NCBI RefSeq assembly: GCF_029961145.1
Contig: NZ_JASBRG010000007.1
Span: 724,155 to 788,154, forward strand
DNA length: 64,000 bases
Direction of reading: 5' to 3'
Origin: Pinibacter soli
Lineage (GTDB): Bacteria > Bacteroidota > Bacteroidia > Chitinophagales > Chitinophagaceae
Each line of letters opens with the position of its first letter. The stretch's first letter is position 1. Below, piece by piece: positions 18,510 through 38,193 of the stretch. The position numbers were made by a program, and so were the translations under genes. The notes below the pieces were generated by a model, which was not told the origin of the DNA, ran no database searches, and saw only the letters and a program-made list of their open reading frames with translations.

Positions 18510-18588
18510 TGGATCGGTATACCTTTTTGCTGGTTACTGTGAATTTTAGTGGGGGAATCTCTAAATGAAAAATAGAAAAAATCTTTGT

Positions 18589-18931
18589 GAAAATACTATC
18601 TTCCTTAAGCAGTATAACACACGGTGACCAAAATACCGCATTGTCGAATACTTTCGCTTTCGTTCGGTTTTGACCTCAAGTCTAGGAATTCCTCCATCAA
18701 CGACACACGTGCGTCAAAATGATGATACACGACAGTCAATTTTTTTTGCAACAATTTTTATATTTGTATTGTCAGGTGACACATTTTTAATGTACGAAAT
18801 ATACTATATCATTTTTTGATTTTTTTTGGCAGACGTTGTATCACGGCTTGCTATGTTTCCCAATTGTGCCCACACAGTAGGCACAATTGGAATTGTTTAT
18901 TCAACAACCAAACGTAGTTAAGGAAACAATT
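18589..18931 (+). repeat. Dispersed non-coding repeat, copy A
   Basis: This stretch aligns by eye with 37902-38193 over its whole length, apart from an A+T-rich insertion of about 50 bases around 18740-18830. The best-conserved part is the 3' 100 bases: ACGTTGTATCAC, CTTGCTATGT, an 11-bp stem CCAATTGTGCC/GGCACAATTGG (18860-18890) with a 9-base loop, then TTCAACAACCAA and a second inverted repeat AATTGTTT/AAACAATT. It lies in the 1,044-base gap between the divergent GH27 gene and the DUF4142 gene. No plausible protein is encoded. Homology may extend some 25 bases further 5'. Confidence 0.8.
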
Positions 18932-19236
18932 CTATGGGTGACTGGATTTGAAATTTTTCTATATCAATAATGATATCAACTACTTCCAAAGTCAATGACA
19001 ATGCTACTCACCACATTGCTTACAGCGAAATAAATAATGAAGAGACCTATTAATCAAATGTAAGAAATTACTGCATCCACCATTCTTGTTTGCTTAACCC
19101 ACTATTGCTGCATGGAGACCCGCTAACAAAATGAAGTGTTGATAGTCTTTCAAATGTATAACTCGACGATATTTCGTTCATCTTATCGTCTAACGCCGAA
19201 AAAAGCATTGAATTAAAACTGAGTCATATTTGAAAG

Positions 19237-19251
19237 CATTGATAATCAATG
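19237..19251. promoter_or_regulatory. Palindrome upstream of the candidate sigma-54 promoter
   Basis: CATTGAT and ATCAATG form a perfect inverted repeat around one central base, 10 bases upstream of the -24 element. A second inverted pair, CTTTCAAATG (19147-19156) and CATATTTGAAAG (19225-19236), brackets the region. These could be sites for the adjacent sigma-54 activator, by position only. Confidence 0.3.
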
Positions 19252-19261
19252 GTTGTAAAAA

Positions 19262-19277
19262 AGGCCGGTGTTTTGCT
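19262..19277 (+). promoter_or_regulatory. Candidate sigma-54 (-24/-12) promoter
   Basis: The sequence AGGCCGGTGTTTTGCT has GG at 19263-19264 and GC at 19275-19276 with the required 10-base gap, and an exact TTGCT -12 box; the -24 box matches TGGCACG at four of seven positions. It lies 50 bases before the first gene of the peroxide operon, whose 3' neighbour is a sigma-54 activator gene. Confidence 0.45.
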
Positions 19278-19326
19278 TTTGCTGAATTGCTTCAATATCG
19301 AAGCTATAACAGCAAAAAAATAAGCA

Positions 19327-19803
19327 ATGAACCAGGATCAAAACTTCAATCGGGCAACCATTAATTTTGTCAGCGAAAAAGAGTTTCGTAACGGTGTAAT
19401 GCCCCGTGCAAAACTTTCAAAACTGGCCTGTGAAATTGCTCTTGAAAAAACTTCGAACACCGAAATCAAAGAATTCGCAGGCTGGGAATTAATGGAAGCA
19501 ACAACTGTGATTGAAGTATTGGAAGATTTAGGGACATCCCAAACTACGCTAAGCAGCGATGCTTCTGCCATTCTCTCAAAACTCAAAAACCTGGATGAAT
19601 CAGCTTTTGAAAAAGAATACATGGCTGCAGAACTTTCCAATCACGAATTTCTCCGCAACCTTGCCCACGATTATTTAAACACGCAACAAGTAAAACCATT
19701 AGGTAAGGACAAGGAAACCTGGCATGTGGCAGGGCTGGCTCTGTTTGCTTTTACTGAACATGTAGGGCTATGTAAAAAAATAATCACCAGCCTAAACGCA
19801 TAA
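19327..19803 (+). CDS. DUF4142-like ferritin-fold protein
   Basis: A 158-residue all-helical protein resembling DUF4142 proteins: an N-terminal NFVSEKEFRNGVMPRAKLSK helix, LACEIALEKTSNTEIKEFA, and a late EYMAAELSNHEFLRNLAHDY segment with His and Glu residues spaced along helices. No signal peptide is seen, unlike many family members. It is the first gene of a plus-strand run and starts 9 bases before the end-to-start junction with the hydrolase. The family has no settled biochemical role; neighbours suggest stress protection. Confidence 0.7.
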   Translation: MNQDQNFNRATINFVSEKEFRNGVMPRAKLSKLACEIALEKTSNTEIKEFAGWELMEATTVIEVLEDLGTSQTTLSSDASAILSKLKNLDESAFEKEYMAAELSNHEFLRNLAHDYLNTQQVKPLGKDKETWHVAGLALFAFTEHVGLCKKIITSLNA

Positions 19804-19812
19804 CAATATATC

Positions 19813-20646
19813 ATGACTACACTCCCACAAACAGCAGCTTTTACAACTGCTGACGGATACTCAATTTCGTATCGCCATTGGCAACCAGGTAATCAAATAA
19901 AAGCTATTGTTGTTATTGTTCATGGATTTAATGCACACAGCGGTTATTACCAGTGGCCCGCAGAGCAATTAATTGCAAACGGATTCGAAGTTTTTGCTAT
20001 TGATTTACGAGGCCGCGGCAACTCCGATGGTGAACGTTTTTATATAAATGACTACCATGAACTAATATCAGATATTGATCAACTGGTTGGCATTGCATTA
20101 TCGGCAAGCCCTGGTTTGAAAGTATTTCTTTTAGGCCATAGTGCAGGTGGTGTGCTTTCAGCCATCTATACATTACCACCCAGTGAAAAACTCAGCGGGT
20201 TTATTTGCGAGAGTTTTGCATTTCGCTTTCCCGCTCCTGATTTTGCAATCGCTGCCTTAAAAGGTTTAAGCCACCTGGCGCCACATGCCCATGTGGTAAA
20301 ACTAAAAAATGAAGATTTTACTCGTGACCCTGCCGCTGTAGAAGTGATGAACAACGACCCGCTTATTGCACATGAAGTGCAGTCTACAAAAACAATACAA
20401 CAACTGGCACTCGCTGATGAAGAATTAAAGAGTCGATTCAATACAATTCAATTGCCGTTATTGATCCTGCACGGCACTGCCGATAAAGCAACTAAACCGT
20501 CGGGCAGTGAATATTTCTATGAGCACGCAGGTTCTCCGGATAAAACTTTAAAACTGTATGAAGGTTATTATCACGACTTGCTTAACGATACAGGAAAAGA
20601 AATAGTGATGAAGGAAATTATAGAATGGTTAAAACAAAGAATCTAA
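19813..20646 (+). CDS. Alpha/beta hydrolase of the monoacylglycerol-lipase type
   Basis: A 277-residue serine hydrolase without signal peptide. The oxyanion segment VIVHGFNAHSGYY, the DLRGRGNSDG motif, the nucleophile elbow GHSAGG (Ser about 110), Asp in HGTADKAT (about 221) and His in GYYHDLLND (about 253) form a full catalytic triad in the Hydrolase_4 order. Such enzymes cleave monoacylglycerols, lysophospholipids or other small esters. It sits between the DUF4142 gene (9-base gap) and a catalase-like gene (28-base gap), in what looks like one operon. The substrate is not inferable. Confidence 0.9.
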   Translation: MTTLPQTAAFTTADGYSISYRHWQPGNQIKAIVVIVHGFNAHSGYYQWPAEQLIANGFEVFAIDLRGRGNSDGERFYINDYHELISDIDQLVGIALSASPGLKVFLLGHSAGGVLSAIYTLPPSEKLSGFICESFAFRFPAPDFAIAALKGLSHLAPHAHVVKLKNEDFTRDPAAVEVMNNDPLIAHEVQSTKTIQQLALADEELKSRFNTIQLPLLILHGTADKATKPSGSEYFYEHAGSPDKTLKLYEGYYHDLLNDTGKEIVMKEIIEWLKQRI

Positions 20647-20674
20647 AAGGGTTTTCAACTTAATAAACAATAAT

Positions 20675-21655
20675 ATGAAACAGGTACAATTGACTTTGCT
20701 GTTAGTTATTTCGGGCGCGCTTTCATCAGGTATCGCATACGCCCAACATGACACGCTAAAATACGATCCAAAAGATCTGGTAACTGCATTACACACTACT
20801 TTCGGAGAACATCACGCCCGGGCCGTACATACAAAAGGTCTGTTTTTTGACGGAACATTCTCACCTTCAAAAGATGCAGCAGCTATTACCAAAGCGAAAC
20901 ATCTACAAAATAAAAGCAGTAATGTAATCGTTCGCTTTTCTGATTTTACAGGCATTCCCGACATTCCCGATAATGCAGGGCCAGCAAACCCAAGAGGAAT
21001 GGCCATTAAGTTCATTATGGATGATAGTTCAGCAACAGACATTGTTGGTCACAGCTTCAATGGTTTTCCTACTGAAAATTCAGATCAATTTCATGATTTA
21101 CTTCTTTCCATAGCTCGCAGCGGAGAAGGAGCGCTTAAACCAACTGCGCTTGACAGTTTTTTAGCAACACATCCAATAGCAAAAACATTTCTTACAACAC
21201 AAAAACTACCTGCGAGCTATGCTACAATTGCATACTTTGGCGTAAACGCATTTAAGTTTACAAACCGGAAGGGAAAATCTTGTTATATACGATACCAATT
21301 TATTCCTGAAGAGGAGAAATTACTTACTGCACAAGAATACAATAATAAGGATGCTGATTATCTTATTAACGAAATCAAAAACCGGATAGCTAAAAAACCG
21401 GTGGTCTTTAAAATGTATGCTCAAATCGCGGAGAATATTGATGTTATTGATAATCCTTCAGTAGCATGGCCCAATACAAGACGGAAAGTTTTTCTGGGAA
21501 CGGTTACCTTAACAAGACTGGCAGACAATTCAGAGGCTGCTGATAAAGCGCTATTTTTCATTCCAAATAATATTCCGGCAGGAATTGAACCTGCAGATCC
21601 TATGATTGATTTCAGGTCCAAAGCTTACCCCATTTCTGTAAAAGAAAGACAATAG
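20675..21655 (+). CDS. Periplasmic catalase-like haem protein (SrpA type)
   Basis: A 326-residue protein with a signal peptide (LTLLLVISGALSSGIAYA) and a minimal catalase fold. The distal His lies in ARAVHTKGLFFDGTF (about 55), followed by VIVRFSDFTGIPDIPDN and NPRGMAIKF, the family's core region. The protein is far shorter than KatA or KatE, as expected for catalase-related peroxidases. It probably disposes of peroxides in the periplasm with haem as cofactor. It lies in the DUF4142-hydrolase-catalase-CMD-SDR operon. A second, full-length catalase lies at 34698-36881. Confidence 0.88.
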   Translation: MKQVQLTLLLVISGALSSGIAYAQHDTLKYDPKDLVTALHTTFGEHHARAVHTKGLFFDGTFSPSKDAAAITKAKHLQNKSSNVIVRFSDFTGIPDIPDNAGPANPRGMAIKFIMDDSSATDIVGHSFNGFPTENSDQFHDLLLSIARSGEGALKPTALDSFLATHPIAKTFLTTQKLPASYATIAYFGVNAFKFTNRKGKSCYIRYQFIPEEEKLLTAQEYNNKDADYLINEIKNRIAKKPVVFKMYAQIAENIDVIDNPSVAWPNTRRKVFLGTVTLTRLADNSEAADKALFFIPNNIPAGIEPADPMIDFRSKAYPISVKERQ

Positions 21656-21717
21656 AATTTTAGAAAAACTATAGGCTTAATAAACCCTTTATCGAATTCT
21701 ACAATAAAATAAAACAC

Positions 21718-22155
21718 ATGCAAAAAAGAATAAACATTCAACAAACAGATCCGGAAGCATACAAAGCAATGTACCCGTTGGAACGTTACCTGTCGGCATC
21801 ATCACTGCAAACAACACATAAAAATTTAATCAAGATCAGGGCTTCGCAAATAAATGGTTGTGCCTTCTGCATTAATCTTCATACCAAAGAAGCAAGGGAA
21901 GCGGGCGAAACAGAGCAACGCATTTATTTATTAAATGCATGGAAGGAAGTGGAGATATTTAGTGATGCAGAAAAAGCTTTGCTTGCATTAACTGAAGCTG
22001 TAAGCCTTATTAAAGATCATGTAACAGACGAAGTATATACAACTGCTGCGAGCTTCTTTGATGAAAAATATCTGGCGCAAATCATCATGGCTATTGTAAC
22101 AATCAATGCATGGAACCGTATTGCCATCACCACACATTTACAACCGCAAATATGA
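21718..22155 (+). CDS. Carboxymuconolactone decarboxylase / AhpD-like protein
   Basis: A 145-residue helical protein with the redox motif CAFCINLHTKEA (Cys-x-x-Cys then His), typical of AhpD-like peroxidase-associated CMD proteins. The upstream MYPLERYLSASSLQ and downstream EKALLALTEAVSLIKD segments also fit. Such proteins reduce peroxides or alkylhydroperoxidase partners. Its stop codon overlaps the start of the following SDR gene (ATGA at 22152-22155), so the two are translationally coupled. Confidence 0.92.
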   Translation: MQKRINIQQTDPEAYKAMYPLERYLSASSLQTTHKNLIKIRASQINGCAFCINLHTKEAREAGETEQRIYLLNAWKEVEIFSDAEKALLALTEAVSLIKDHVTDEVYTTAASFFDEKYLAQIIMAIVTINAWNRIAITTHLQPQI

Positions 22156-22904
22156 ATACACTGCAAAACAAAACCGCTGTTATTACCGGCGGCACTACCG
22201 GCATTGGTTATGCCACCGCAAAACTGTTTAGAGAAGCAGGTGCAACAGTTATCATTACAGCCAGAGATGCACCGACACTGGATAAAGTTTCAAAAGAATT
22301 GAATGTACATGGTATTCGCGCAGACCAGTCTTCCATAACAGAAACAAATGCTTTAGTAAGTGAAGTACAGCAATCATATGGCAAGATCGACATACTCTTT
22401 TTAAACGCCGGCATTACACAATTCAGTGCTATAGATACAATGTCTGAGGAACATTTTGATGCTATGATGGATCTGAACTTTAAAGGCACCATCTTCACTA
22501 TTCAGAAATTTCTGCCGGTACTTGCAAACGGTGCATCTGTTATATTGATGGCCTCAGTAAACGCCAGCCTGGGTGCTCCCGGAAGCATTGTTTATTCAGC
22601 CTCAAAAGCCGCACTTATTGCAGCAAACCGAATTCTGGCAGCTGAACTTGCGTCTCAAAAAATAAGGGTAAACGCTGTATCGCCAGGGCCGGTAGAAACA
22701 CCATTGTATGATAAATTAGGTTTATCAGAAACACAATTAACAGGCATGTATGATCACTTGAAAAATAAAATATTATTGGGAAGATTTGCCAGACCGGAAG
22801 AGATTGCAAAACTGGTAAATTTTCTTGCATCTGACGATGCATCATTCATTACCGGAACTGAAATTATTATTGATGGCGGGCTTACTGTAAATACGGTTTC
22901 CTAG
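22152..22904 (+). CDS. SDR-family oxidoreductase
   Basis: A 250-residue short-chain dehydrogenase when started at MNTLQNKTAVITGG (22152), where it overlaps the CMD stop by 4 bases. Cofactor motif TGGTTGIG, NAG in LFLNAGITQF, catalytic Ser/Tyr/Lys in MASVNASLGAPG and VYSASKAA, and the end motif ITGTEIIIDGG. This CMD-SDR pairing is common beside peroxide-defence genes. It is the last gene of the operon and faces the sigma-54 activator gene, 23 bases away. Substrate unknown. Confidence 0.92.
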   Translation: MNTLQNKTAVITGGTTGIGYATAKLFREAGATVIITARDAPTLDKVSKELNVHGIRADQSSITETNALVSEVQQSYGKIDILFLNAGITQFSAIDTMSEEHFDAMMDLNFKGTIFTIQKFLPVLANGASVILMASVNASLGAPGSIVYSASKAALIAANRILAAELASQKIRVNAVSPGPVETPLYDKLGLSETQLTGMYDHLKNKILLGRFARPEEIAKLVNFLASDDASFITGTEIIIDGGLTVNTVS

Positions 22905-22927
22905 TAGCAGGAAGAATTTTGTACTTA

Positions 22928-24562
22928 TCAATATTCTTTATTAATTCCAAGCTTTTTCATTTTTGATTGCAGTGTAGTTGGAGGAAGATTGAGCATAGCC
23001 GCAGCGCCTTTTTCGCCACGTATTCTTCCATTGCATTTCTTAAGCGTAGCTACTATATGTTGTCTTTCTACTTGTTCCAGTGATTTGATGTCTTGTTCTT
23101 CCGGTAACACAGATGGTTCTTTTACCGTACTAACAAGATGAATATCTTCGATGCAGGGACCCGTTGCCATCAGTATGCTTCTTTCAATCACGTTTTCCAG
23201 TTCACGAATATTTCCTGGCCAGTCATATTGGTGGAATTCTTTTAAAACGGCAGGTGCAACGCCTGTAATTTTTTTACCAATTTTTGGCGTTAGCTTGTGA
23301 ATGAAATAAGCAATTAGCTCATCAATATCTTCTTTTCGATGACGCAGCGGTGGTAACACAATAGGAAACACGTTCAGTCGATAATATAAATCAGCTCTGA
23401 ATCTTCCTGCCGCGACTTCTTTTTCCAGGTCGCGGTTTGTTGCCGCTATAATGCGTACATCTGTTTTAATAACAGTTTGCCCACCAATTCTTTCCACCTC
23501 TTTTTCCTGGATAGCTCTCAAAAACTTCACCTGCAAATCCAAAGACATTTCACCAATCTCATCTAAAAATAAAGTACTATTGTCTGCCAACTCAAACTTC
23601 CCCATCCTTCGTTCAGTAGCACCGGTAAAGCTTCCTTTTTCATGCCCAAACAATTCACTTTCTATCAGTTGGGCCGGCAATGCAGCACAGTTTACTTTGA
23701 TCATCAGCTTATCCTTTCGGCCGGATGTATTATGAATAGCCCTGGCAATTAACTCCTTGCCGGTGCCCGTTTCGCCCATAATCAAAACGGTACTGTTAGT
23801 ACGTGCAACATTGGCAATTAACTGAAAAACTTTTTTAAGCGAAGTAGCAGCACCAATAATATCACCGGCACTAACGGCATCGCTCATTTGTTCCTGTAAA
23901 TACAAGTTCTCCTGTTCCAGCCTTGATTTATACTGCTTGATTTCAGCCAGTTGGTTTTGAATTTGTTCATAGGCGAGTATATTGGAAATGGCAATGGAAA
24001 TATGTGCGCATACGGCTTCGGCTAGCTTAATTTCAGAAGGTGAAAAAAATATTTTTTCTTTTACATACACAAACACAGCACCGAAGCTTTTATTGTTTAC
24101 CCGAACAGGAAATCCGATTAACTGGTTAACATTAAGCTCATAAAAAAAGTCAACATAGTAAGGCCGGTTTGAACGCCTCATTAATTCATACATATCAAAT
24201 ATTACCGGCTCTTCCGCTGTTTGAATAACATTGTAAATGCCGTCATTAATATAATATTTCATCGCTACGCCTTTGGCAAAACTCGGGTGTTGTATTGTTT
24301 GTTCCGTAATAGTATGAATGTAGTTGGTATGGGTTAGATTGTCGGTATTATCCAGACATATCATAATTTCATTGAAACGGAAATATTTGGCCAGCCTCTC
24401 AGACACAATTTGCTGAATATCCTGTTTAGTGCGGCAGGAAGTAATATCCTTACTTAATAGCAGTAGCAAAGACTTTTCTTCTTCAATTTCCTTTATCAGG
24501 AGAATTGAATGATTATTGTCAACGGCAGGGTTTGTTTGTGTTGTTTGTTTCGGGGTTTCCAT
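22928..24562 (-). CDS. Sigma-54-dependent transcriptional activator with GAF sensor
   Basis: A 544-residue enhancer-binding protein. A GAF domain spans about 30-190; the AAA+ domain has Walker A GETGTGKE (about 263), the sigma-54 contact loop as GSFTGA (about 312; a Ser variant of GAFTGA), Walker B LFLDEIGEM and R-fingers RLNVFPIVLPPLRHR. A Fis-type helix-turn-helix ends the protein (GAAAMLNLPPTTLQSKMKK). GAF domains sense small ligands or redox state. It is convergent with, and 23 bases from, the peroxide operon that has a candidate sigma-54 promoter, so it is the likely regulator of that operon. No phosphorylatable receiver domain is present. Confidence 0.95.
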   Translation of the reverse strand: METPKQTTQTNPAVDNNHSILLIKEIEEEKSLLLLLSKDITSCRTKQDIQQIVSERLAKYFRFNEIMICLDNTDNLTHTNYIHTITEQTIQHPSFAKGVAMKYYINDGIYNVIQTAEEPVIFDMYELMRRSNRPYYVDFFYELNVNQLIGFPVRVNNKSFGAVFVYVKEKIFFSPSEIKLAEAVCAHISIAISNILAYEQIQNQLAEIKQYKSRLEQENLYLQEQMSDAVSAGDIIGAATSLKKVFQLIANVARTNSTVLIMGETGTGKELIARAIHNTSGRKDKLMIKVNCAALPAQLIESELFGHEKGSFTGATERRMGKFELADNSTLFLDEIGEMSLDLQVKFLRAIQEKEVERIGGQTVIKTDVRIIAATNRDLEKEVAAGRFRADLYYRLNVFPIVLPPLRHRKEDIDELIAYFIHKLTPKIGKKITGVAPAVLKEFHQYDWPGNIRELENVIERSILMATGPCIEDIHLVSTVKEPSVLPEEQDIKSLEQVERQHIVATLKKCNGRIRGEKGAAAMLNLPPTTLQSKMKKLGINKEY

Positions 24563-25269
24563 ACAAAATCATTATTAAGATTTCTATCCGCTTATAGATA
24601 GCTTTTGGGTTAAGTTACACTTACGTCCTAGCACTCTGAAGGTTAGTGTCAGCTCCATATCAATAAATAACTAAGCTGAATTGAAATACAAAACTGAAGA
24701 TAAAAATAATATTTCAAAGCATTAACATAGTTCAAGTACATGCTTGTAGTTAATAGTACCGATGGCAATTCTTTTAAAAAACCACGAAATATAACACACC
24801 TCCTCTTGTGCTTACACAGCAAATTGAACATTTCATAGCACTTTCAGCGTCCGCCCGCTGCAGAAAAGTTTCCGGTGGGAATGTTGCCGATTATTATAGT
24901 ACTTCATTATTGATTCATCAAAATTTGATATCGTGAAGAGAGGTCTCCATTCTGACCAAATTCATTAGATTGGATATCGAGACATATCGATTTCCAGGTC
25001 AGGAAAATCGACAACAAACAGAGATAAATTTTTACGGTAGACATTGCGTTTAAAGTAATTCCGCTTATGTCGAATTTATTGCGTACCTTACTTTAGATTT
25101 TTCTCAGGATACGATTTAAGAATCAAACAACAGGCTAATAGCTCTGTCTCTTTCTCTATTCTCCGCAAAGTTTTAAGCAATCAATTCTTCAGGCCTGCAG
25201 GCATAGTTGAAATCTTAACGAACAGACCGCAACTTTAATTTAATTAACAACATTCTTTCAATTTTTATT
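24563..25269. other. 707-base intergenic gap, divergent
   Basis: A+T-rich stretch between the divergent activator gene and the secreted-protein gene. It probably holds both promoters. I saw no GG-N10-GC promoter with a TTGC box, no strong hairpin and no frame with protein-like composition. Confidence 0.4.
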
Positions 25270-25761
25270 ATGACAAAGAAATTATTATTAACCTTCACTG
25301 GTTTATTATTTGTCTGTGCATCTATATCTGCTCAAAAGGTAAACACAGATTCACTCTTTTTTCAAAAGGCAAATACAGACTCTCTTTCCCTGGTCGCTAA
25401 AATCAGCGAAGATCAACTGAAACTGGGCAAACTTCAAAATCAGGTTGAGCAAAAAACACAAAACAAACATGATGCGTCACAACAAGCTCAAAAGTCTGCG
25501 GATGCTAATACTACAGCAGCAGGTAAGCTAAGTGATCACCCGGAAGACAAAAAGTTGGCCAGAACAGCAAACAACAATGCAAGTAGCGCCAAGTCAGATT
25601 CAAAAAATGCAAGGAAAGAAACAAGCTCATTGGACAAACTAAATGTCGACATCCAGGATCTGAAAAACAAGATTGCCGCTAACCAGGTGAAATTAGATAA
25701 GTATGTAAAACCGGAATTGCTAGATAAGCCCATAGGTACTGAGATAATTGCGCCTCAATAA
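25270..25761 (+). CDS. Secreted low-complexity helical protein of unknown function
   Basis: A 163-residue protein with a clear signal peptide (LLLTFTGLLFVCASISAQ). The mature part is rich in Lys, Ala, Ser, Asn and Asp with heptad-like runs (ISEDQLKLGKLQNQVEQK, LNVDIQDLKNKIAANQVKLD), so a coiled coil is likely, with a looser Ala/Ser/Asp-rich middle. No Cys remains after cleavage. No family is recognised. It stands alone between a 707-base and a 314-base gap, and its neighbours give no hint beyond the stress theme of the region. Confidence 0.75.
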   Translation: MTKKLLLTFTGLLFVCASISAQKVNTDSLFFQKANTDSLSLVAKISEDQLKLGKLQNQVEQKTQNKHDASQQAQKSADANTTAAGKLSDHPEDKKLARTANNNASSAKSDSKNARKETSSLDKLNVDIQDLKNKIAANQVKLDKYVKPELLDKPIGTEIIAPQ

Positions 25762-26075
25762 ACAGGCACAAATGGCAGAGATTAACATTCACGAGTAAAG
25801 TAACATTCAGTTTAACATAAACTTGTTATCAATAACTTTCCAGAAAACGGTGCTATTTTTATAGAAGCATTCAGTTTTTGGAAGGTTATTTTTTGGTACG
25901 TAATGCTTCATTGGCGGACAATCCAACACATTTATCCAATTGAAAAATTTATGAGCAAGATGCTGTTACGGAGCACTTGCTTAATTAACCGCGGTACGTT
26001 TTTTATGAACGTAATATGCAGGTATTCCTGTTAACTAATAAACCTACCTTACATTATTTTCCCGAAAGATGTTAT
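25762..26075. other. 314-base gap before the antiporter gene
   Basis: No gene or clear regulatory site seen. A short GTTAT/ATAAC inverted repeat near 25829-25840 is too weak to call a terminator. Confidence 0.3.
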
Positions 26076-27728
26076 ATGATGGAGAATTTCAAAGTGATTA
26101 TATTAATCATGGCAGTACTGATCGGGTTGTCTGCTTTTATTGAAAAAATCAAGCTCCCCTATCCTGTATTGCTTGTACTTGCAGGATTAATAATTGCTTT
26201 CATTCCGGGAGTACCACGGATCATTCTCAATCCTGATGTTATTTTTGTGGTTATCCTTCCTCCTTTGCTATATGATGCCGCATCACGCACATCCTGGAAA
26301 GATTTTAAAGCCAACATACGTCCGATCTCTGCGCTGGGCGTTAACCTCGTTTTCTTTACAATTCTGGCCGTTGCTATAACTGCTTATTATTTTATTCCGG
26401 CTTTTAATTGGCCCGCGGCGTTTTTACTGGGCGCCATCATTGCTCCGCCAGATGCGGTCGCCGCAACCGGCATACTCAAGGGACTTTCTTTGAACAAGCA
26501 GGTATCTGCCATTTTAGAAGGCGAAAGCCTGGTAAATGACGCAGCGGCGCTTATTGCTTACCGTTATGCATTGATCGCGGTTCTCACAGGAAGTTTTGTG
26601 CTGTGGCAGGCTGCTCTTCAATTTATATTTGTAGCTGCGGGTGGCATTTTAATCGGTGGACTTATCGGTTACATCATTACCTGGATACATAATAAAATTC
26701 ACGAACAGCCTATTATTGAGACTTGCTTTACACTGCTAACGCCGTTTCTGTCCTACTTTGCTGCTGAACGGATAGGTGCGTCTGGCATACTTGCGGTTGT
26801 AAGTGCCGGACTTGTTGTTTCAGTGCGTTCATCGGAAGTTTTCTCCTACGATATGCGTCTGCAAACTACTTATGTTTGGGATACGATCATGTTTTTACTA
26901 AATGGATTTGTCTTTATCTCTATCGGGCTTCAGTTACCGGTTATATTGAATGAACTGAATTACTACTCATGGTACACGCTTCTCTTATACAGTGCATTGA
27001 TAAGTGTTGTAACTATCGGTGTACGCATAGGCTGGGTTTTTTCAGGTGCCTATTTTGCACGACTTTTTAAATGGAAAAAGCCAGGAGATGGGTTAGGCTC
27101 TACTGAAATTGATCATGACGACACATGGAAAAATGTAATGATCGTAGCATGGACCGGCACCAGGGGCGTTCTTTCCATGGCCGCGGCACTTGCTTTGCCA
27201 TTGACATTGTACAGCGGAAAACCATTTCCCGAGCGTGCCCTGATCGTGTTCCTTTGCTTTGTTGTTATTTTTGTGACGCTGGTGATACAAGGTTTTTCGC
27301 TGCCGTTGCTTATCCGTTTGCTTAATGTAAAAAATAGTGAAGAAGATAAAGAGGAACGACAAATTCAATTACATTTAATCAAGAGCACACTGCATTACAT
27401 AGATCACGAATATCCTCTCCCGTTGGAAGAATCGGTTAAGGCATTATTGAAAAAAGAGTTTGAACTAACAGCGGAAAGACTAGTGCGTGAAATACGTGCG
27501 CATAAGTGGAATGAAACTGGAGGAAAACGAGTAGCTGTCAGAATACTGACGCCTTTGCAACAAGCGCGAATAGCGATCGGGCTTTTTCAGAGGGACCTGC
27601 TATTAAAGTTACACAAGGACGGAAAAGTAAGCACCACTGCTCTTAAAGAGGTTGAACGTGATTTGGATATAGAGGAACTAAATTTGAATCAGCAACTTCC
27701 GTCAAAGGAAGACCAACCTGAAAGTTAA
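26076..27728 (+). CDS. CPA1-family Na+/H+ antiporter
   Basis: About 550 residues with roughly 12 membrane helices in the first 430 and a charged cytoplasmic tail. The core motifs of CPA1 exchangers are present: GAIIAPPDAVAATGILKGL and EGESLVNDAAALIAYRYAL, plus GTRGVLSMAAALALPL. It exchanges Na+ (or K+) for protons at the inner membrane and serves pH and salt homeostasis. The start is placed at the first Met of MMENFKVIIL, since the 20 residues upstream do not fit the family; 26079 is equally possible. Confidence 0.93.
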   Translation: MMENFKVIILIMAVLIGLSAFIEKIKLPYPVLLVLAGLIIAFIPGVPRIILNPDVIFVVILPPLLYDAASRTSWKDFKANIRPISALGVNLVFFTILAVAITAYYFIPAFNWPAAFLLGAIIAPPDAVAATGILKGLSLNKQVSAILEGESLVNDAAALIAYRYALIAVLTGSFVLWQAALQFIFVAAGGILIGGLIGYIITWIHNKIHEQPIIETCFTLLTPFLSYFAAERIGASGILAVVSAGLVVSVRSSEVFSYDMRLQTTYVWDTIMFLLNGFVFISIGLQLPVILNELNYYSWYTLLLYSALISVVTIGVRIGWVFSGAYFARLFKWKKPGDGLGSTEIDHDDTWKNVMIVAWTGTRGVLSMAAALALPLTLYSGKPFPERALIVFLCFVVIFVTLVIQGFSLPLLIRLLNVKNSEEDKEERQIQLHLIKSTLHYIDHEYPLPLEESVKALLKKEFELTAERLVREIRAHKWNETGGKRVAVRILTPLQQARIAIGLFQRDLLLKLHKDGKVSTTALKEVERDLDIEELNLNQQLPSKEDQPES

Positions 27729-28204
27729 GGGCGCTAAATATTTTCTTTCATGTATCAACAAATTCAAATGGCACCATTAACAATTCTGTAATCCAATCTA
27801 TTCAGTAGTAATAGTAAGCCGTTTAAAAAATACTTTAACCAAAGTTTTTTTTAAACGATGTCACATACTGGCAAAAAGGACCTACCTTCATAGAGCGGAC
27901 TAAGTTCTTCATCATTTAGTTTTGATCAGTTTTAATTCTTACACAATTTTTCCTCCTCTTTGCTTTTTGTTGCAGTCAACTTACACAAGCCTCTCTTCTA
28001 TTTCCCATCACTAACTAGGTTATAAGAACAAATAGCAAATAAGGAGGGTAAAATATATACATCTTCTCGGGCTATTACTCAATACTACATTGCATTTACC
28101 ATCTGTGAGGCAGCATGGCAACAGCGTGCGGTTTGACCAGGAATAAAAGAAAGATAATTCCTGTAACAAATCTCAAATGGCTCATTAATATTTTAAAAGA
28201 ACTT
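27729..28204. other. 476-base gap before the desaturase gene
   Basis: Non-coding, A+T-rich. An extended frame from 28115 runs into the desaturase but its residues do not resemble that family, so it is treated as leader. No recognisable promoter or terminator. Confidence 0.3.
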
Positions 28205-29227: not shown

Positions 29228-29746
29228 CGTGTTACTATCATCGCTGCAAATGACTATTTGTGCTGGTCGTTTTTACGTGAAGCAATTTCTCACAATTACA
29301 TTTATTTGATACGCATACCAATCGGGCAAAACACAGGCTTATTTTATTCATAACAAAGTACATGAACCTGTGATAACACGCTATTTCTGATTGATTTGGA
29401 AAGCGCAATATCTCAAAGTCAAAAGACCCGGGAATACTTGAAATGGGCCAGAAAAGAACTACATTTGAATAGCAGATAATTAAGGTCAATCAATTTGCAA
29501 TAGAGCGCTATCCTAAACAGATTGCAAAATTTAAAAGCAGTGCTGTTGATGTAAAAAGTTTTAGTGATGCATGTCCGATAACTCACCCTCATGCGCTTGC
29601 TGATAATAGTTTTAAACATGGCTATTTCTCCATGATATTATTATTGTTATTTAACCTTCGATAAAACCGCCGACTTTGAATTTGCAGTTACTGTGTGGTA
29701 CAATTATTAACGAACACAGGCAGTTAACCTGCCGAAAAACTTTATA
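29228..29746. other. 519-base gap
   Basis: Short frames on both strands have no protein-like composition that I recognise, and frame changes within 29400-29620 hint at possible gene decay without enough to name a family. No hairpin terminator was identified. Confidence 0.3.
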
Positions 29747-32700: not shown

Positions 32701-33133
32701 GAAAAATGCATCCATCACATACAAGAAGCTACCTATGATAGATGCAGTGCCATTACAGATCAACCAGCTATTTTATAATTTATTAAGCAATGCTTTAAAA
32801 TTTTCTAATACCAACATTGTTCCTGTTATAAGTATTACTTCAAATGCCTTGGCAGAGGCGGACATGGAAAAATATCCTGATTTGAATAGCAAGGTGCCGT
32901 ATGTAGAAATTATTTTTAGAGACAATGGCATTGGCTTTGATCAAAAATTTTCAGAACAGATATTTTTAATTTTTCAGAGATTAAATTCCCGCGAACAATT
33001 TGAAGGTACAGGAATCGGTTTGGCGTTGTGTAAAAAGATTGTGGTGCTTCACCATGGCGAGATATACGCAGAAGCCAAAGAAGGCCAGGGAACAATTTTT
33101 CATATTATCCTTCCTTTAAAACAATTAAACTGA
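29747..33133 (+). CDS. CheB-CheR-PAS-histidine kinase fusion protein
   Basis: A 1,128-residue signalling protein. CheB methylesterase domain at about 17-205 with the Ser in GVGASAGG, His in VQHLEPTH and Asp in SGTATDGT; CheR methyltransferase at about 220-480 (RIWVAGCSTGEEVYSMA, IFATDISEKA, ISCRNVLIYM); a long Glu/Leu/Ser/Asn coiled coil at about 640-710; PAS domain about 715-830; HisKA with His in IASHDLQEPLRK (about 899); HATPase with LFYNLLSNALKFS, DNGIGFD and GTGIGLALCKK. No receiver is attached to CheB. It is presumably cytoplasmic. Such fusions occur without chemotaxis operons, so a role in non-motility signalling is likely. The small response regulator at 33190-33612, encoded convergently, is the likely partner. 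Confidence 0.95.
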   Translation: MSEKGLDKNKTKQFPTNGFPVVGVGASAGGLEAFKKLIKAIPETSGMAYILVQHLEPTHESKLAELLQKISPVPIYEITNNIRVEPDRIYIIPSNKLLTATDGVLQLSPRPAKNEKNMPIDVFFTSLAEIHGSQAIGIVLSGTATDGTIGLKAIKEQGGITIAQDPKSAAYDGMPQNAIDSDVVDFVFAPEEIPLQLTRLVRSFQPDFTGPHEKANPNGGDAFRQLLAILHARRGADFTYYKQTTIRRRIIRRMGLNNVENITDYLSFVKENIQEQDLLYQDLLIPVTSFFRDTKTFDFLCDTIFPLLLRNKAEAAPLRIWVAGCSTGEEVYSMAICLYEYFKDKAIDDKIQIFATDISEKAITKARTGTYSQNEITSLTPARLQKYFTKWKGNFQIDKSIRDICVFACHNFLKDPPFAKIDLISCRNVLIYMEPSLQKRVLTTFHYAIKDNGYLLLGKSESVSPASDLFAIFGKNEKVYIRKPAEGKYLNILTDNSEFKKNNIAAKNEFVQEDFQKSADDILLSRYTPAGVVINDQMEIVQFRGATGNWLEPSSGKPTLNVLKMAREGLAFELRNALHKVKVSELPIVKENIPMQFMGKMQWVTIEVVPLLNTAEPYFLILFKESMFPRELSNAVLKLVPSADPDQQNAEALHIQRLQMELAQTREDMRSITEDQEAVNEELQSANEELLSGSEELQSLNEELQSTKEEIQSTNEELTILNQELFDRNEQLNIARLYAESIIATIREPLIVLDKNMNVKTANRSYYQKFRTTENETEGKSFYELEEGQWNIPYLRSMLKTVLLEGKEMEDFEIRQVFKYSGERIMLLNATQIFRKKDAEQLILLVVEDVTDMKKQEAQLKKFTLELEEKVEERTLDLKNSNESLKHSNENLEQYASIASHDLQEPLRKIRAFASLLNQRYSGDIKDEAKQLLKKISLSADRMSTLITDVLSYSKIVESKLVFEQTDLNKVIEDVIADFDLLIFEKNASITYKKLPMIDAVPLQINQLFYNLLSNALKFSNTNIVPVISITSNALAEADMEKYPDLNSKVPYVEIIFRDNGIGFDQKFSEQIFLIFQRLNSREQFEGTGIGLALCKKIVVLHHGEIYAEAKEGQGTIFHIILPLKQLN

Positions 33134-33189
33134 CTGCCTGCACCAATTGATAACAATGATGATCCGAAATGTCTTCATTGCTAACATAT

Positions 33190-33612
33190 TCATTTAATAG
33201 AATTAGGATGCAGGCACCTGTCCCAATAATCCAGTACACTTTTTACCAGATCCTCGAAAGCTTCTAAATTTGAAGGCTTTTGAAAGTAACCCTGAACGGT
33301 AAGCTCGTAAGCTTTTCTTATCTCCCCCGGGTTGCGGCTGGTTGTCAAAAAAATAAAAGGAATAGATTTTTGCCGAAGGTATTCGTTTTCAGAAATGCGT
33401 TTATATAATTCAAGCCCGCTCATTACCGGCATATTGATGTCACAAAAAATAACAAAAGGCTTTTCCGGCGTTTGCAGAAAATAATCCAATGCCAATTGGC
33501 CATTTGCAAAAAATCTGTAAATACTTTTCGGAGCAATATTATCAATAATATGCTGAAGCAAGTCACAATCATCCTGATCATCATCTATAATTATGATGGG
33601 TCCTTTTTTCAA
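33190..33612 (-). CDS. Single-domain response regulator
   Basis: A 140-residue receiver domain alone: acidic pocket IIDDDQDDCDLL, phosphoacceptor Asp in FCDINMPVMSG (about 57), Thr in FLTTSRNPGE and Lys in YFQKPSN. It has no output domain, like Rcp1-type proteins that pair with PAS-type kinases. Convergent with the kinase fusion, with only 56 bases between stops. It probably relays phosphate from that kinase to another protein. Confidence 0.93.
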   Translation of the reverse strand: MKKGPIIIIDDDQDDCDLLQHIIDNIAPKSIYRFFANGQLALDYFLQTPEKPFVIFCDINMPVMSGLELYKRISENEYLRQKSIPFIFLTTSRNPGEIRKAYELTVQGYFQKPSNLEAFEDLVKSVLDYWDRCLHPNSIK

Positions 33613-33730
33613 TGTGTGCGTTTCCTCAGTTTAATTAGAAGCAGAAATTAGAAATAATTTTACACTTATCAAAGTTCTTTAACACAGAAGTACGCATATT
33701 ATACCGTAAGTCGTCTTTTTTTCATCACGT

Positions 33731-33920
33731 GTAAATTCTTATTTTGTAGATGAGATAAAAGACATTTACTGGGCAGAGAAGAACCTTGTGAAAGAATACC
33801 TAAAATGCAAAAAGCAGCGAGTTCTGAAGGATTGAAAAGCGCCTTTGCAACCCACCTGGAACAAACAAAAACAGAAAGTAGAACATTACGAAATTGCTAC
33901 CTATGCATACAGAAACAAAT
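33731..33920 (+). pseudogene. Remnant of a YciE/YciF-like (DUF892) ferritin-fold gene
   Basis: Read across at least two frame changes, the plus strand gives FVDEIKDIYWAEKNLVK, then PKMQKAASSEGLKSAF and THLEQTKT, then VEHYEIATYAYRN. These are the ordered signature pieces of the DUF892/YciF family, which has about 160-180 residues. No start codon remains and the 3' half is missing. The remnant runs directly into a glycosidase remnant at 33894, so a deletion has joined two decayed genes. Confidence 0.65.
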
Positions 33921-34205
33921 ATTAAGATGCCTTACTGTACCGAATGGGTTTTAAAACAATGGGCAAATGTGCATAGATTAAAACACGATGGCGTGCCTAT
34001 TGTCGGGTTTACGTGGTACAGCCTTGTACATCACGTAGATTGGGACACTGCACTAAGAGAAGATAATGGAAACATTAATGAACTGGGACTATATAATCTG
34101 AATAGGGAAATAACGCCCGTTGGCTAAGCGTACAAAAATTTAATAAAGAATTGGAACGATATCATTACCGAAGAAAGCTATGGACTTGTGTTTTACAACA
34201 GCTGA
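33894..34205 (+). pseudogene. C-terminal remnant of a GH1-like glycosidase gene
   Basis: The frame reads MHTETNIKMP (resembling the nucleophile TENG region of GH1), then GVPIVGFTWYSLVHHVDWD, LGLYNLNREITPVG, an in-frame TAA at 34125-34127, and continues in the same frame as AYKNLIKNWNDIITEESYG to a TGA at 34203. That tail matches what GH1-like proteins have after the Arg/Gly-rich turn, so the TAA is a nonsense mutation. The whole catalytic N-terminal part is absent. Family assignment is by motif only. Confidence 0.6.
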
Positions 34206-34697
34206 TTATGCTACCTTGTAAAAACTATTTTCTCTTTTAAAATATTCGCGGTAAATGACCCAAAAAGCTCATGAGCCTTTACTTTGTGTGAAGATATATG
34301 CAAATGCGCCTGTTCCATGAACACTGTCAAACAAGCGTCTTTTTGCCTGCGATTAGTTTTGTTTTTTGGGGGAGTAGAATGAGGAGCCCTTAACTGCGCA
34401 TTTTTTTTCATAACGATCATGTTGTAAACTGATATTCACAAATGGCGTTCCACGTACGCCGACCGGCTAAATAGAAATGCTTGTAAAAGCGACTGGCGGA
34501 CCTGTGGTTAATCTTACCCAAATACAGCAGTGCTACAATCCCAATAACTGCAAATCATTTCCCACATAAAATAAAATAGCGCCTGACCTAATTGATCAAA
34601 CGCTATTAACACAACACATATAATACCAATGGATCAAACCAATATAACAGTGAGACGACCTTGAAATGGAACTATATTGTGTGACCATCAGTATAAA
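34206..34697. other. 492-base gap downstream of katE
   Basis: A weak inverted repeat AATAGCG (34575-34581) / CGCTATT (34601-34607) lies about 90 bases past the katE stop and might terminate it. A 69-codon minus-strand frame at 34211-34420 is present, but I could not support it as a gene. Confidence 0.3.
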
Positions 34698-36881
34698 TTA
34701 CGCAGGCACTTTTCTGGCCTTTTCTCTGTGCCAGAACCTGTGTGCAGCAACGGCTTTTATAAAACTTTTTGTAAGTACTGCAATATCATTTTCTATAATC
34801 AAACCTTCTTCCTCCTTTTTTCTATTCTTTAAATCTTTAGGAAGTTTTTTCGAAAAATAAGTTGCTTTCAAAACCTGCATCGCATCCGCATCTGCTGCGA
34901 TGGCTTTGCAATGCTTGTATGCCTCGTTGATGAAATGGATAGCATCAGGTTCTGCTTCAAGGCTGACTACACTGTTGGTACCGCCCGGCACATACACCGC
35001 ATCAAACAACACAGAAGCAGCCGTAAGAAAACTTTGATCTATAGCAATCTCCTTGTCATTGGTACTCATTACTGTGCCTTGATGCGGCGCTACTAATTGG
35101 TATGTTGCACCCTGCTCAGTTAACGCATTTGTCATTGCATCTACAGACATTTCATTAACGCCATCAGCCACCAAGATTGCTATGCACCTCGTTTGAATAG
35201 AGTCTTTTTTAGTGCCCATCATACTTAGTGCATCTGATTTTTCCAAACTACTTTTTGCAATGATGGATTCATATTCCGTAGGATCACCATCAGCCGGAAT
35301 GCTTTTATTAATAGGCATTTCAGGCTTTGGCACATTTAGTCCAAGCTTACGTGCCACATGGCTTGCAAGACTTTTATCAACCAGCGATAATATACCCAAC
35401 ATACGCACCCTTATCTCTTGTGTATTCACTTTGCCCAGCTCAAACGAAAAGGCATCAACGATATGATCTTTTTCCGGCTGTGACTGACTATTGAAGAACA
35501 AAGTCGCCTGACTGAAATGATCAAAGAAACTGCGGCTTCGTTCCCTTATCTTTTTAGCGTCAATGCGTTCAGCGTAAGAAGTAAAGCCTCCATCTTTCAT
35601 GCCGGCTTGAAACGGACAACCACCGCCAAGTGTATTTGGATGATAGCTCACTTTACCACTATTGATCTGCTGGCGCATGTGACCATCACGCTGGTTGTTA
35701 TGGATTGGAACTACCGGTCTGTTGATAGGTATTTCATGAAAATTAGGTCCACCAAGTCGCAGCAGCTGAGTATCTGTGTATGAAAATAATCTGCCTTGCA
35801 ATAACGGATCATTAGTGAAATCAATACCCGGCACCACATGTCCTACGTGAAAAGCCACCTGCTCTGTTTCAGCAAAAAAGTTTTCAGGGTTTCTGTTCAA
35901 CGTCATTTTGCCAATCCTTTGTACAGGCACCAGTTCTTCCGGCACCAGTTTGGTGGGATCGAGCAGGTCGAATTCAAACTTGTGTTCGTCGGCTTCTGGT
36001 ATGATCTGTACACCCAGTTCCCACTCAGGGAAAGCACCGTTTTCAATAGCTTCCCAAAGGTCGCGACGATGAAAATCAGGATCTTTACCGGAAATATTCT
36101 GCGCTTCATCCCATGCTACCGAATGCACACCCAGCAAAGGTTTCCAATGAAACTTAACAAAGTTCGAATCTCCTTTTTCATTTATAAAACGAAAAGTGTG
36201 TACACCAAATCCTTCCATCATACGATAACTACGCGGAATAGCACGATCACTCATTAACCACATAATCATGTGAGTAGATTCCGGCATCAACGATATGAAA
36301 TCCCAAAAGGTTTCATGTGCAGATGCTGCCTGCGGAATTTCATTATGTGGTTCAGGTTTTACTGCATGAATTAGGTCGGGAAATTTAATCGCATCCTGTA
36401 TGAAGAATACGGGCATATTATTGCCCACCAGGTCAAAATTGCCTTCCTGTGTATAAAACTTCACAGCAAAACCACGCACGTCGCGTGCAAGGTCCGTTGA
36501 GCCGCGAGAACCCGCCACTGTAGAGAATCTTACAAACACAGGCGTTTCAATAGAAGTGTCATTTAAAAAACCCGCTTTGGTAACATCTCCAAGTGATTTA
36601 TACAAACGGAATATGCCATGTGCCGCTGTACCTCTGGCATGTACAATTCTTTCCGGAATTCGCTCATGGTCAAAATGGGTGATTTTTTCCCGCAAAATAA
36701 AATCTTCCAGCAGCGTAGCACCGCGGCTTCCGGCCTTCAGTGAATTCTGATCGTCATTCACTTTTAAGCCCTGGTTGGTGGTAAGTAACTCGTCTTCATT
36801 AGACTGTATATCAGGCAGCAGATCATTGATCTTTGTACTTTCATTTTTTTTAGACGAATTGTCTTTTTTACTTTTTGGCAT
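34698..36881 (-). CDS. katE: Large-subunit monofunctional catalase (HPII type)
   Basis: A 727-residue catalase. The N-terminal extension is typical of clade-2 large catalases. Distal His is in RIVHARGTAAHG (about 83), the essential Asn in VGNNMPVFFIQD, and the proximal haem-ligand Tyr in GRLFSYTDTQLLRLG. After the core comes a C-terminal flavodoxin/DJ-1-like domain from about 585 (CIAILVADGVNEMSVDAM, YVPGGTNSVVSL). It converts hydrogen peroxide to water and oxygen in the cytoplasm. Monocistronic by its gaps. Confidence 0.97.
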   Translation of the reverse strand: MPKSKKDNSSKKNESTKINDLLPDIQSNEDELLTTNQGLKVNDDQNSLKAGSRGATLLEDFILREKITHFDHERIPERIVHARGTAAHGIFRLYKSLGDVTKAGFLNDTSIETPVFVRFSTVAGSRGSTDLARDVRGFAVKFYTQEGNFDLVGNNMPVFFIQDAIKFPDLIHAVKPEPHNEIPQAASAHETFWDFISLMPESTHMIMWLMSDRAIPRSYRMMEGFGVHTFRFINEKGDSNFVKFHWKPLLGVHSVAWDEAQNISGKDPDFHRRDLWEAIENGAFPEWELGVQIIPEADEHKFEFDLLDPTKLVPEELVPVQRIGKMTLNRNPENFFAETEQVAFHVGHVVPGIDFTNDPLLQGRLFSYTDTQLLRLGGPNFHEIPINRPVVPIHNNQRDGHMRQQINSGKVSYHPNTLGGGCPFQAGMKDGGFTSYAERIDAKKIRERSRSFFDHFSQATLFFNSQSQPEKDHIVDAFSFELGKVNTQEIRVRMLGILSLVDKSLASHVARKLGLNVPKPEMPINKSIPADGDPTEYESIIAKSSLEKSDALSMMGTKKDSIQTRCIAILVADGVNEMSVDAMTNALTEQGATYQLVAPHQGTVMSTNDKEIAIDQSFLTAASVLFDAVYVPGGTNSVVSLEAEPDAIHFINEAYKHCKAIAADADAMQVLKATYFSKKLPKDLKNRKKEEEGLIIENDIAVLTKSFIKAVAAHRFWHREKARKVPA

Positions 36882-36915
36882 TGAACATAATTATAAATGA
36901 GCGAATGAAATGTAT

Positions 36916-36930
36916 GCATAACAATTATGC
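36916..36930. promoter_or_regulatory. Palindrome upstream of katE
   Basis: GCATAA and TTATGC form a perfect 6-bp inverted repeat with a 3-base centre, 34 bases upstream of the katE start codon. Position suits an operator for a peroxide or stress regulator. No regulator is identified. Confidence 0.3.
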
Positions 36931-37158
36931 CATAGTGAGGTAAAGAAAAGCTGGCTTAACTCCGCAAATACCATGGTAACAAATTTGCTTATTTAGTCCG
37001 TACAGGCGTTACACCCGGATTGGACTTTCTATTACCTGCAGTGTATGGTATTTCTTCGACTTAAGTTGACAATAGCATGCCACCCTGTAGAGTGTTGCGA
37101 TTAGCTGAAAGTTTTATCCATATTGGATGTAAGAGATAACTGATAAAAATCACAAACA

Positions 37159-37653
37159 ATGAGACAGAATACAAATACACAAGACACCTCAAACTTTTTT
37201 GAAACATTTGCCAATAAGGTAAACAAAGCAGCAGGAAGCACAATAGCATTTCTTGTCGCATTTTTAATTGTTATAGTCTGGGCCGTTTCCGGACCATTTT
37301 TTCATTATTCGGAAAACTGGCAACTGGTAATCAATACAGGCACCACTATCATCACCTTTTTAATGGTTTTCCTTATTCAAAAGTCACAGAACAAAGATTC
37401 GCTTGCTATACAATTAAAATTAAACGAGCTCGTGGCCGCCCATGAGTTCGCTAGCAATCGTCTTGTCAACGTCGAAAACATGACCGAGGATGAGTTAAAA
37501 GTGATCCAGAAATACTATTCCAAACTAAGTGAGTTTAGCAAGAGCGAAGAAAATTTACAACGGTCGCATTCTATTGACGAAGCAGAGCAAATACATGAGC
37601 TGAAAAAAGACATCGAAGAAGATGTAAAAAAGAATCTAGGAAAAAGCAATTGA
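37159..37653 (+). CDS. Low-affinity iron permease family protein
   Basis: A 164-residue membrane protein with two membrane helices (STIAFLVAFLIVIVWAVSG and LVINTGTTIITFLMVFLIQ) and the QKSQNKDSLAIQLKLNELV segment characteristic of the family named after yeast Fet4-like permeases. Bacterial members are short and their transport role is not proven. A charged C-terminal helix follows (LKKDIEEDVKKNLGK). Its placement near KatE suggests a link of iron and peroxide handling. Confidence 0.85.
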   Translation: MRQNTNTQDTSNFFETFANKVNKAAGSTIAFLVAFLIVIVWAVSGPFFHYSENWQLVINTGTTIITFLMVFLIQKSQNKDSLAIQLKLNELVAAHEFASNRLVNVENMTEDELKVIQKYYSKLSEFSKSEENLQRSHSIDEAEQIHELKKDIEEDVKKNLGKSN

Positions 37654-37815
37654 AGCAAAAGTATATTGGGATCATTGCCTGCTATCTGTATCTGTTTCTC
37701 ATGGTGCTGTTACGGAAGAAGCATTGCAAAATCCTTTGCCGACTTAACTATAATTGCAGTAATTACTTTCATATCTATTAATCAATAACATTTATCTTCT
37801 ATTAATAAAGTACCT

Positions 37816-37843
37816 AGTGCGAATTAGTCACCATTCGAACACT
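37816..37843. repeat. Imperfect hairpin upstream of repeat copy B
   Basis: AGTGCGAAT pairs with ATTCG-AA-CACT (a 2-base bulge), about 300 bases before the conserved hairpin of copy B. It occupies a place comparable to the 18481-18509 hairpin before copy A, but its sequence is not clearly related. Confidence 0.35.
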
Positions 37844-37901
37844 TACTAAATCTAAGAACACACATTCATATAAATCCTTGATGAATTGAAATAATGTTCT
37901 A

Positions 37902-38193
37902 TGAAAATACTGTCTTCCTTAACTAGTACGACACACGAAGAACCAAATATTGTTTTTGTCGAATAGTTTCGCATTCTTTCGGTTTTGAACTTAAGTTCAA
38001 GGATTGTGTCATCAATGACACGCGTGTCTCAAATTTATGACACATGGATAGCCAATTTTTGACAACTATTTTAATTTATTTTGAAAACGGATGGACGTTG
38101 TATCACTACTTGCTATGTCTCCCAATTGTGCCCACACTGTAGGCACAATTGGGATTGTTTATTCAACAACCAAGCGTAGCTAAGAAAACAATT
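37902..38193 (+). repeat. Dispersed non-coding repeat, copy B
   Basis: Homologous along its length to 18589-18931 and in the same orientation. It carries the conserved 12-bp stem CCCAATTGTGCC (38121-38132) / GGCACAATTGGG (38142-38153), the following TTCAACAACCAA segment, and an inverted repeat ATTGTTT/AACAATT. Its middle holds extra palindromes GTGTCAT-CA-ATGACAC and GACACGCGTGTC (38007-38028), which are degenerate in copy A. Here it lies between two convergent genes, ending 8 bases from the stop of the 38202-38744 gene, so its context differs from copy A. Confidence 0.8.

Follow-up and report, generated by a model that had tools for sequence, protein, structure and literature searches.

Intergenic repeats in Pinibacter soli as probable decayed ends of tRNA-Leu(CAG) integrative elements with DUF1016-type palindromes

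Two diverged non-coding repeats and their further copies

The window analyzed here is a stretch of 64,000 nucleotides of the Pinibacter soli genome (contig NZ_JASBRG010000007.1, positions 724,155 to 788,154), and its subject is a pair of non-coding repeats whose palindromes belong to a class also found in genes for DUF1016/YhcG nucleases. An initial annotation, made from the letters alone, had pointed out both repeats and a strong hairpin conserved between them, and both observations held. Copy 1 (18571-18931) and copy 2 (37884-38193) align over 364 columns with 69% identity (E 6e-40, and E 9.7e-39 in a second search), and neither overlaps any of the listed open reading frames (ORFs) of at least 80 aa. 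Their contexts are as unlike as had been claimed: copy 1 is flanked by divergent genes (16258-18282 on the minus strand and 19327-19803 on the plus strand), while copy 2 is flanked by convergent ones (37159-37653, plus; 38202-38930, minus). The reported stem is present in both copies, with a 9-base loop that differs between them at one base, although a 29-bp palindrome around one central base, CAATTG-n5-ACAnTGT-n5-CAATTG, describes the hairpin better. It is followed by a fixed tail, ATTGTTTATTCAACAACCAAnCGTAG, which occurs exactly twice in the window (chance expectation 0.00). The features of both copies are collected in the table.

Features of the two repeat copies in the window (feature, position, strand, remarks)
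Copy 1, module A: putative attachment-site arm region	18589-18769	+	TGACACACG-like sites, 1 mismatch each: 18615, 18701, 18708 (inverted), 18723
Copy 1, TGTCAGGTGACACA module	18770-18783	+	also G000 C11:680660, G001 C5:228k (1 mismatch), C5:240k, C1:448k
Copy 1, palindrome (reported hairpin)	18861-18889	.	12/14 arm positions paired
Copy 1, conserved tail with TTCAACAACCAA	18892-18931	+	common to copies 1 and 2
Copy 2, module A	37902-38100	+	TGACACACG-like sites, 1 mismatch each: 37929, 38016, 38023 (inverted), 38038
Copy 2, palindrome (reported hairpin)	38123-38151	.	13/14 arm positions paired
Copy 2, tail	38154-38193	+	homology to both sister genomes starts at the tail end, window 38193-38200
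Bare palindrome CAATTGCGAATACAGTGTATTCGCAATTG	18481-18509	.	14/14 paired; 80 bp before copy 1

Comparisons within the genus covered three genomes, namely that of the window (G000, 5.9 Mb) and two sister genomes (G001 and G002); C denotes a contig. A search of the whole genome of the window returned long matches to the last part of the query, including the tail, for copies 1 and 2 only, together with a third, partial copy with a perfect palindrome at G000 C11:666.3-666.7k. Partial copies occur in all three genomes, in agreement with the earlier description of a dispersed element, which the evidence below ties to mobility. A history of just two copies, produced by a recent duplication and devoid of covariation, does not apply here, as further copies exist and the hairpin class co-varies.

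Copy 2 marks a border. The DNA to its right is shared with both sister genomes; to its left, each of the three species has different neighbouring DNA. By eye, the G001 counterpart of this border seems to hold another fragment of an attachment region; a clean empty site for copy 2 was not obtained in the sister-genome comparison.

Two other repeats were seen in the window. A small dispersed repeat, separate from the one discussed here, lies at 7890-7985 and 61267-61362, as well as at L025:8476-8556 and L027:6481-6569 (74-79% identity). A diverged repeat of 67% identity joins 13933-14385, in a GH3 glycosidase ORF, to 50316-50771, in the region around 50.5 kb, and probably reflects paralogous genes.

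Module A, a tRNA-Leu(CAG) gene and a tyrosine integrase

The left two thirds of the copies, which we call module A, occurs 7 times across the three genomes. It holds repeats of TGACACACG, with up to 1 mismatch, at a fixed spacing: 75/22/75 in two copies of G001, 75/22/72 in G002, and 86/22 and 87/22 in the window; the shuffle means were 0.02-0.09 per region. The window copies each retain three direct arm-like sites and one inverted site, all with a single mismatch; the third copy retains two nonamers, and the copy on C1 of G001 is without one.

In the third copy and in the copies of G001 and G002, the left part continues into a sequence like GAATCCAGTCCTGGGCAC plus a hairpin. This continuation corresponds to the 3′ end of tRNA-Leu(CAG); the G000 and G001 copies also include the sequence downstream of the tRNA. 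The intact tRNA-Leu(CAG) gene lies at G000 C11:663545-663627, with equivalents in G001 and G002. Upstream of it, the three species show 82-88% homology, which ends at the 3′ end of the tRNA. Among the stretches compared, homology resumes approximately 17 kb past the tRNA in G000 (C11:680814) and approximately 255 kb past it in G001 (C5:261314, with G001 C5:18-218k outside the comparison), and no resumption was seen in the compared stretch of G002. Approximately 280 bp after the tRNA, G000 carries the remnant of a tyrosine-type integrase with 2 stops (C11:663905-664291). After the tRNA, G001 (L058) carries four TGACACACG-like sites along with an integrase ORF (PF00589, E 1.8e-13) and a decayed DUF1016 gene whose palindrome is still perfect.

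As read from these sequences, a core, arm sites, and an integrase together are the anatomy of an attachment site. Since synteny stops at the tRNA and an integrase with the same nonamers lies beside it in a sister genome, the window copies probably represent attachment-site ends of tRNA-Leu integrative elements that have since decayed. Module A would form the arm part, with its TGACACACG arrays bound by the tyrosine integrase of the element, and the crossover core, formed by the 3′ end of the tRNA, would normally follow it and would have been lost from the window copies. One of the possibilities raised in the initial annotation, a non-autonomous mobile element with hairpin ends, came close to this reading, but the ends look like attachment-site arms plus a DUF1016-type palindrome.

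Module A and the palindrome might instead have a regulatory role, as the shared promoter of a stress gene that is lost or has escaped notice. The window copies lie among catalase, OsmC, and desaturase genes, and several copies contain TAnnTTTG, which we take to resemble the Bacteroidota -7 box. A promoter of this kind is nonetheless highly improbable, as the copies occupy both divergent and convergent gene gaps, copy 2 sits at a border between conserved and variable DNA, and other copies run on into the 3′ end of a tRNA.

The DNA between the two copies encodes two catalase-family ORFs, a CMD-family ORF, and a desaturase. It also includes a 163-aa ORF at 25270, without a Pfam match, which is 84% identical to the stretch directly before module A on C1 of G001. 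Positions 27369-27502, in the region of a Na+/H+ exchanger ORF, match L023:7828-7961 over 134 bp with 82% identity; the latter stretch lies approximately 200 bp after tRNA-Leu and overlaps the integrase remnant. Downstream of the exchanger gene, a long A/T-rich hairpin (27820-27857) resembles a terminator.

Palindromes in DUF1016/YhcG genes and the domain encoded there

A pattern search for the palindrome across 294 genomes of the family matched 8 genomes. Outside the genus it gave six matches, of which, once the frames had been read, five fell in DUF1016 ORFs and one in a decayed DUF1016 gene. An order-level search of 396 genomes matched 7, and the six sites outside the window's own genome all lay in DUF1016-like frames, two of them repeating sites of the family search. 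DUF1016 genes were then gathered by protein family. Most of them carry a palindrome in the same place, just before L-S-W-[ST]-H, with arms that have symmetry in common and often not sequence.

For scoring, ORFs had to contain this anchor motif, be at least 150 aa long, and have YG/FG upstream; 139 loci went in, 113 ORFs were kept, and 110 of these were distinct. Five of these loci (L035-L038 and L041) had been recruited by the palindrome pattern itself. A score of at least 9 was reached by 74 of the 110 ORFs, compared to 8 of 2200 synonymous-codon shuffles (20 per ORF), and in 85 of the 110 the best palindrome of the whole ORF was the one at the fixed place. Its centre lies at exactly -11.5 nt in 83 of the 86 palindromes scoring at least 8, whereas the same measurement on ParB genes gave 0 of 28 above a score of 6. 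In four genes (L038, L041, L108, and L261), two palindromes precede LSW[ST]H. Judging from record titles, strong palindromes are present in Bacteroidota, Pasteurellaceae, Planctomycetes, Acidobacteria, Nitrospirae, Desulfobacterales, Treponema, and viral contigs. The class measures about 25-29 bp and has an odd centre, mostly ACAnTGT or GCAnTGC, and arms that often end in CAATTG. Neither palindromes nor binding sites in DUF1016/YhcG genes were found described in the openly licensed literature searched.

Covariation of the arms was assessed on 80 distinct palindromes at the fixed centre, scoring at least 6. Watson-Crick pairing at arm positions 2-9 was kept in 85-100% of them, while at position 6 all four pairs were about equally common (AT 20, TA 20, CG 16, GC 14). 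G.T mismatches (35) were hardly more frequent than A.C mismatches (31), which points to a constraint at the DNA level. This bears on the suggestion of a structured RNA in the initial annotation, which found no support: there was no such wobble bias, and no Rfam family reached its gathering threshold in the window. It bears equally on the possibility that the palindrome acts as a hairpin in the mRNA to control the expression of DUF1016, with the window copies as terminators or small RNAs of similar shape. The stems are strong and T-rich stretches follow some copies; however, in addition to the lack of a clear G.U excess and of Rfam matches, dyad symmetry is maintained at the odd centre, and this centre is coupled to a residue aligning with a DNA-specificity residue (see below), and we regard a hairpin acting in the mRNA as very unlikely.

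The N-terminal domain of DUF1016 proteins resembles the DNA-binding domain of ParB/Noc, judging by profiles and a predicted model. PF17762, a ParB helix-turn-helix family, matched in all four DUF1016 proteins tested (E 1.2e-4 to 4e-3), and hhalign aligned DUF1016 to ParB with a probability of 81 (E 1.2e-5), placing LSW[ST]H opposite ISMGH. The model of the N-terminal domain had a mean pLDDT of 89.7, and its 15 best Foldseek matches were all ParB/Noc/Spo0J chains, including Noc bound to its site (TM 0.67 on target length). With the whole chain, the nuclease half (NucS/EndoMS) led and no ParB was among the 50 matches listed. Stop-containing rows were left out of the DUF1016 alignments A4 and A5; the best match of the A5 profile among PDB sequences was an unrelated protein (E 0.12).

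According to passages of PMC7383237, residue 201 of ParB is a specificity residue, at which G, C, S, or T is possible in parS binders. From the naming of G201 and R204 there, we infer that this residue is the G of LSxGHAR. Among the 80 palindromes, the aligned residue in DUF1016 proteins was Ser for 20 of 20 with an ACA.TGT centre and Thr for 33 of 39 with a GCA.TGC centre. On a tree built without the palindrome-coded residues, for which 92 ORFs were used, 78 of them carrying both labels, all 10 path-independent pairs that differ at this base pair of the centre switch between Ser and Thr in the same direction.

Bare palindromes, the proposed mechanism and known systems

The first, exact pattern for the palindrome had only three sites in the 5.9 Mb of G000, and a second pattern, allowing up to 3 mismatches, found 5 sites in G000 and 5 in G001, two of the latter being located at DUF1016 loci, namely the decayed gene and a further one. 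The 8 bare sites of these two genomes have 11-14 of 14 positions paired, and all 8 have A.T at centre position 3, the class that goes with Ser. Pairing is preserved by two-sided changes, as in TGTCC/GGACA of G000 and CGTCC/GGACG of G001. The site at 18481 is identical in 29 of 29 bases to the palindrome in the DUF1016 gene of Chitinophaga oryziterrae and Chitinophaga sp. CF118 (L131 and L132). None of the window palindromes is coding, and none has the position ahead of L-S-W-[ST]-H that the class takes in DUF1016 reading frames.

Two bare sites precede module A (18481 and G001 C5:225160) and five follow it (18861, 38123, C11:666659, G001 C5:228567, and G001 C1:448703), three of the five at 91-97 bp beyond TGTCAGGTGACACA. 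The eighth, C11:484535, has no arm sites nearby. At this last locus (L218, G000 C11:484535-484563), the palindrome is imperfect, has longer outer arms, and lies beside what by eye appears to be a relic of TGTCAGG and its downstream region; the DNA 8 kb further on is syntenic with G001 C1:457k.

Bare palindromes could be all that is left of decayed DUF1016 genes, having outlasted the rest through arm-to-arm copying during replication, and have no role of their own. The decayed gene beside the G001 integrase, with its perfect palindrome, counts in favor of such a history. We compared the 14 flanks of 7 bare sites to DUF1016 flanks, with 60 shuffles each. One flank outscored every one of its 60 shuffles; for 4 others, among them the marginal right flank of 18481 (equalled by 3), just 2-4 of the 60 did as well. 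The other 9, including both flanks of the palindromes at 18861 and 38123, were at shuffle level, so that descent from DUF1016 genes is not shown by flank similarity. Several bare sites, moreover, lie at one common place relative to module A or TGTCAGGTGACACA. We regard gene relics as an unlikely source of the bare palindromes.

Alternatively, the palindromes could be selfish, like the Rickettsia palindromic elements, and insert both in intergenic DNA and, keeping the frame, in DUF1016 genes without being read by the nuclease. In favor of this, bare copies exist and some DUF1016 genes have two palindromes. However, selfish elements should have a common sequence beyond symmetry, while the arms are unrelated in sequence between many genes and the centre keeps one codon offset in 83 of the 86 strong palindromes. 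All 12 pattern matches outside the genus, two of them duplicates, fell in DUF1016 genes (11) or a relic. Selfish insertion thus seems improbable.

Rather, the reading we favor, with moderate confidence, is that the copies are decayed ends of tRNA-Leu(CAG) integrative elements, and that their hairpins are DUF1016-type palindromes bound by DUF1016. Most likely, the nuclease binds the palindrome that forms part of its own gene, and the hairpins of the window would be bare copies of this site at island ends. In the mechanism we propose, DUF1016, in which a PD-(D/E)XK nuclease domain follows the ParB/Noc-like DNA-binding domain, would bind the palindrome as a dimer inside its own gene, as ParB binds parS. 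In this genus, it might also bind the bare palindromes and so mark, pair, or protect the element ends. Binding could lead to autoregulation, to pairing or protection of ends during excision, or to the cutting of unprotected sites. That the ParB-like domain recognizes the palindrome, both in the gene and at element ends, has in our estimate somewhat better than an even chance. We are evenly divided on the wider proposal that DUF1016/YhcG is self-addressed, such that the codons of its ParB-like DNA-binding domain form the palindromic site that this domain recognizes, specificity and site co-evolve, and additional bare copies lie at the ends of mobile elements in this genus. A role of DUF1016 in element mobility is plausible, as an integrase adjoins it at 3 of the 10 DUF1016 loci of the genus.

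Several observations weigh against this reading. At the window copies, the tRNA core is absent from both, and no integrase or DUF1016 gene adjoins them. Integrase-DUF1016 adjacency is limited to those 3 of 10 loci of the genus, and few other loci have a similar integrase nearby. G002 has module A, but allowing up to 3 mismatches yielded no site of the palindrome pattern there; and after the TGTCAGG module at G000 680k and G001 240k, no more than the left half of the palindrome is present. Among DUF1016 ORFs, 24 of 110 score below 8 at the site, 21 of the 80 palindromes have neither standard centre, and Ser occurs with GCA.TGC in 6 of 39. The PF17762 scores are individually weak, with 1 of 4 over the cut-off, as are the Foldseek E-values of the N-terminal model (0.14-1.3), and sequence-profile searches of the PDB gave no significant relative, the best match of the A3 profile being Spo0J/ParB 6sdk (E 0.2). 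Lastly, a Thr/Ala-Ser/Thr contact at the protein level could contribute to the coupling; such a contact does not explain the palindromes themselves.

Integrative elements of Bacteroidota of the NBU1/CTn type target tRNA genes by means of tyrosine integrases. Like the elements proposed here, these have the 3′ end of tRNA-Leu as the core, an adjoining integrase, direct-repeat arm sites, and neighbouring DNA that varies between species. The differences are that core and integrase are gone from the window copies, that palindromes of the DUF1016 type occur near the ends, and that several copies are found away from the tRNA. The window repeats would connect this palindrome class to mobile elements that target a tRNA gene, and specifically to their ends.

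The palindrome-bearing gene family, that of the DUF1016/YhcG nucleases (PF17761 and PF06250), is widespread and is listed by PADLOC as a defence candidate (PDC-S02), and a description of its target was not found in the openly licensed literature searched. A palindrome that is fixed in place, co-varies, and is coupled to the residue aligned with the ParB specificity residue is a concrete candidate for this target. ParB and Noc, with their sites parS and NBS, share with DUF1016 a helix-turn-helix, a palindromic site, and a small polar residue at ParB position 201 that varies with the site, as far as the relevant passages of PMC7383237 go. In contrast to these sites, the one proposed for DUF1016 is up to 29 bp long, has an odd centre and widely variable arms, and lies inside the gene of the protein itself. 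The protein differs as well, as a PD-(D/E)XK nuclease domain follows and no ParB N-terminal domain was among the Pfam matches of DUF1016.

Rickettsia palindromic elements and other coding palindromes likewise lie in ORFs and, in the portions of PMC4316617 and PMC6649704 consulted, are repeated insertions or long inverted repeats. The DUF1016 palindromes keep their place and symmetry, not their sequence, in one gene family across phyla. In this unusual case, the same DNA encodes a DNA reader and, apparently, is also the text that it reads.

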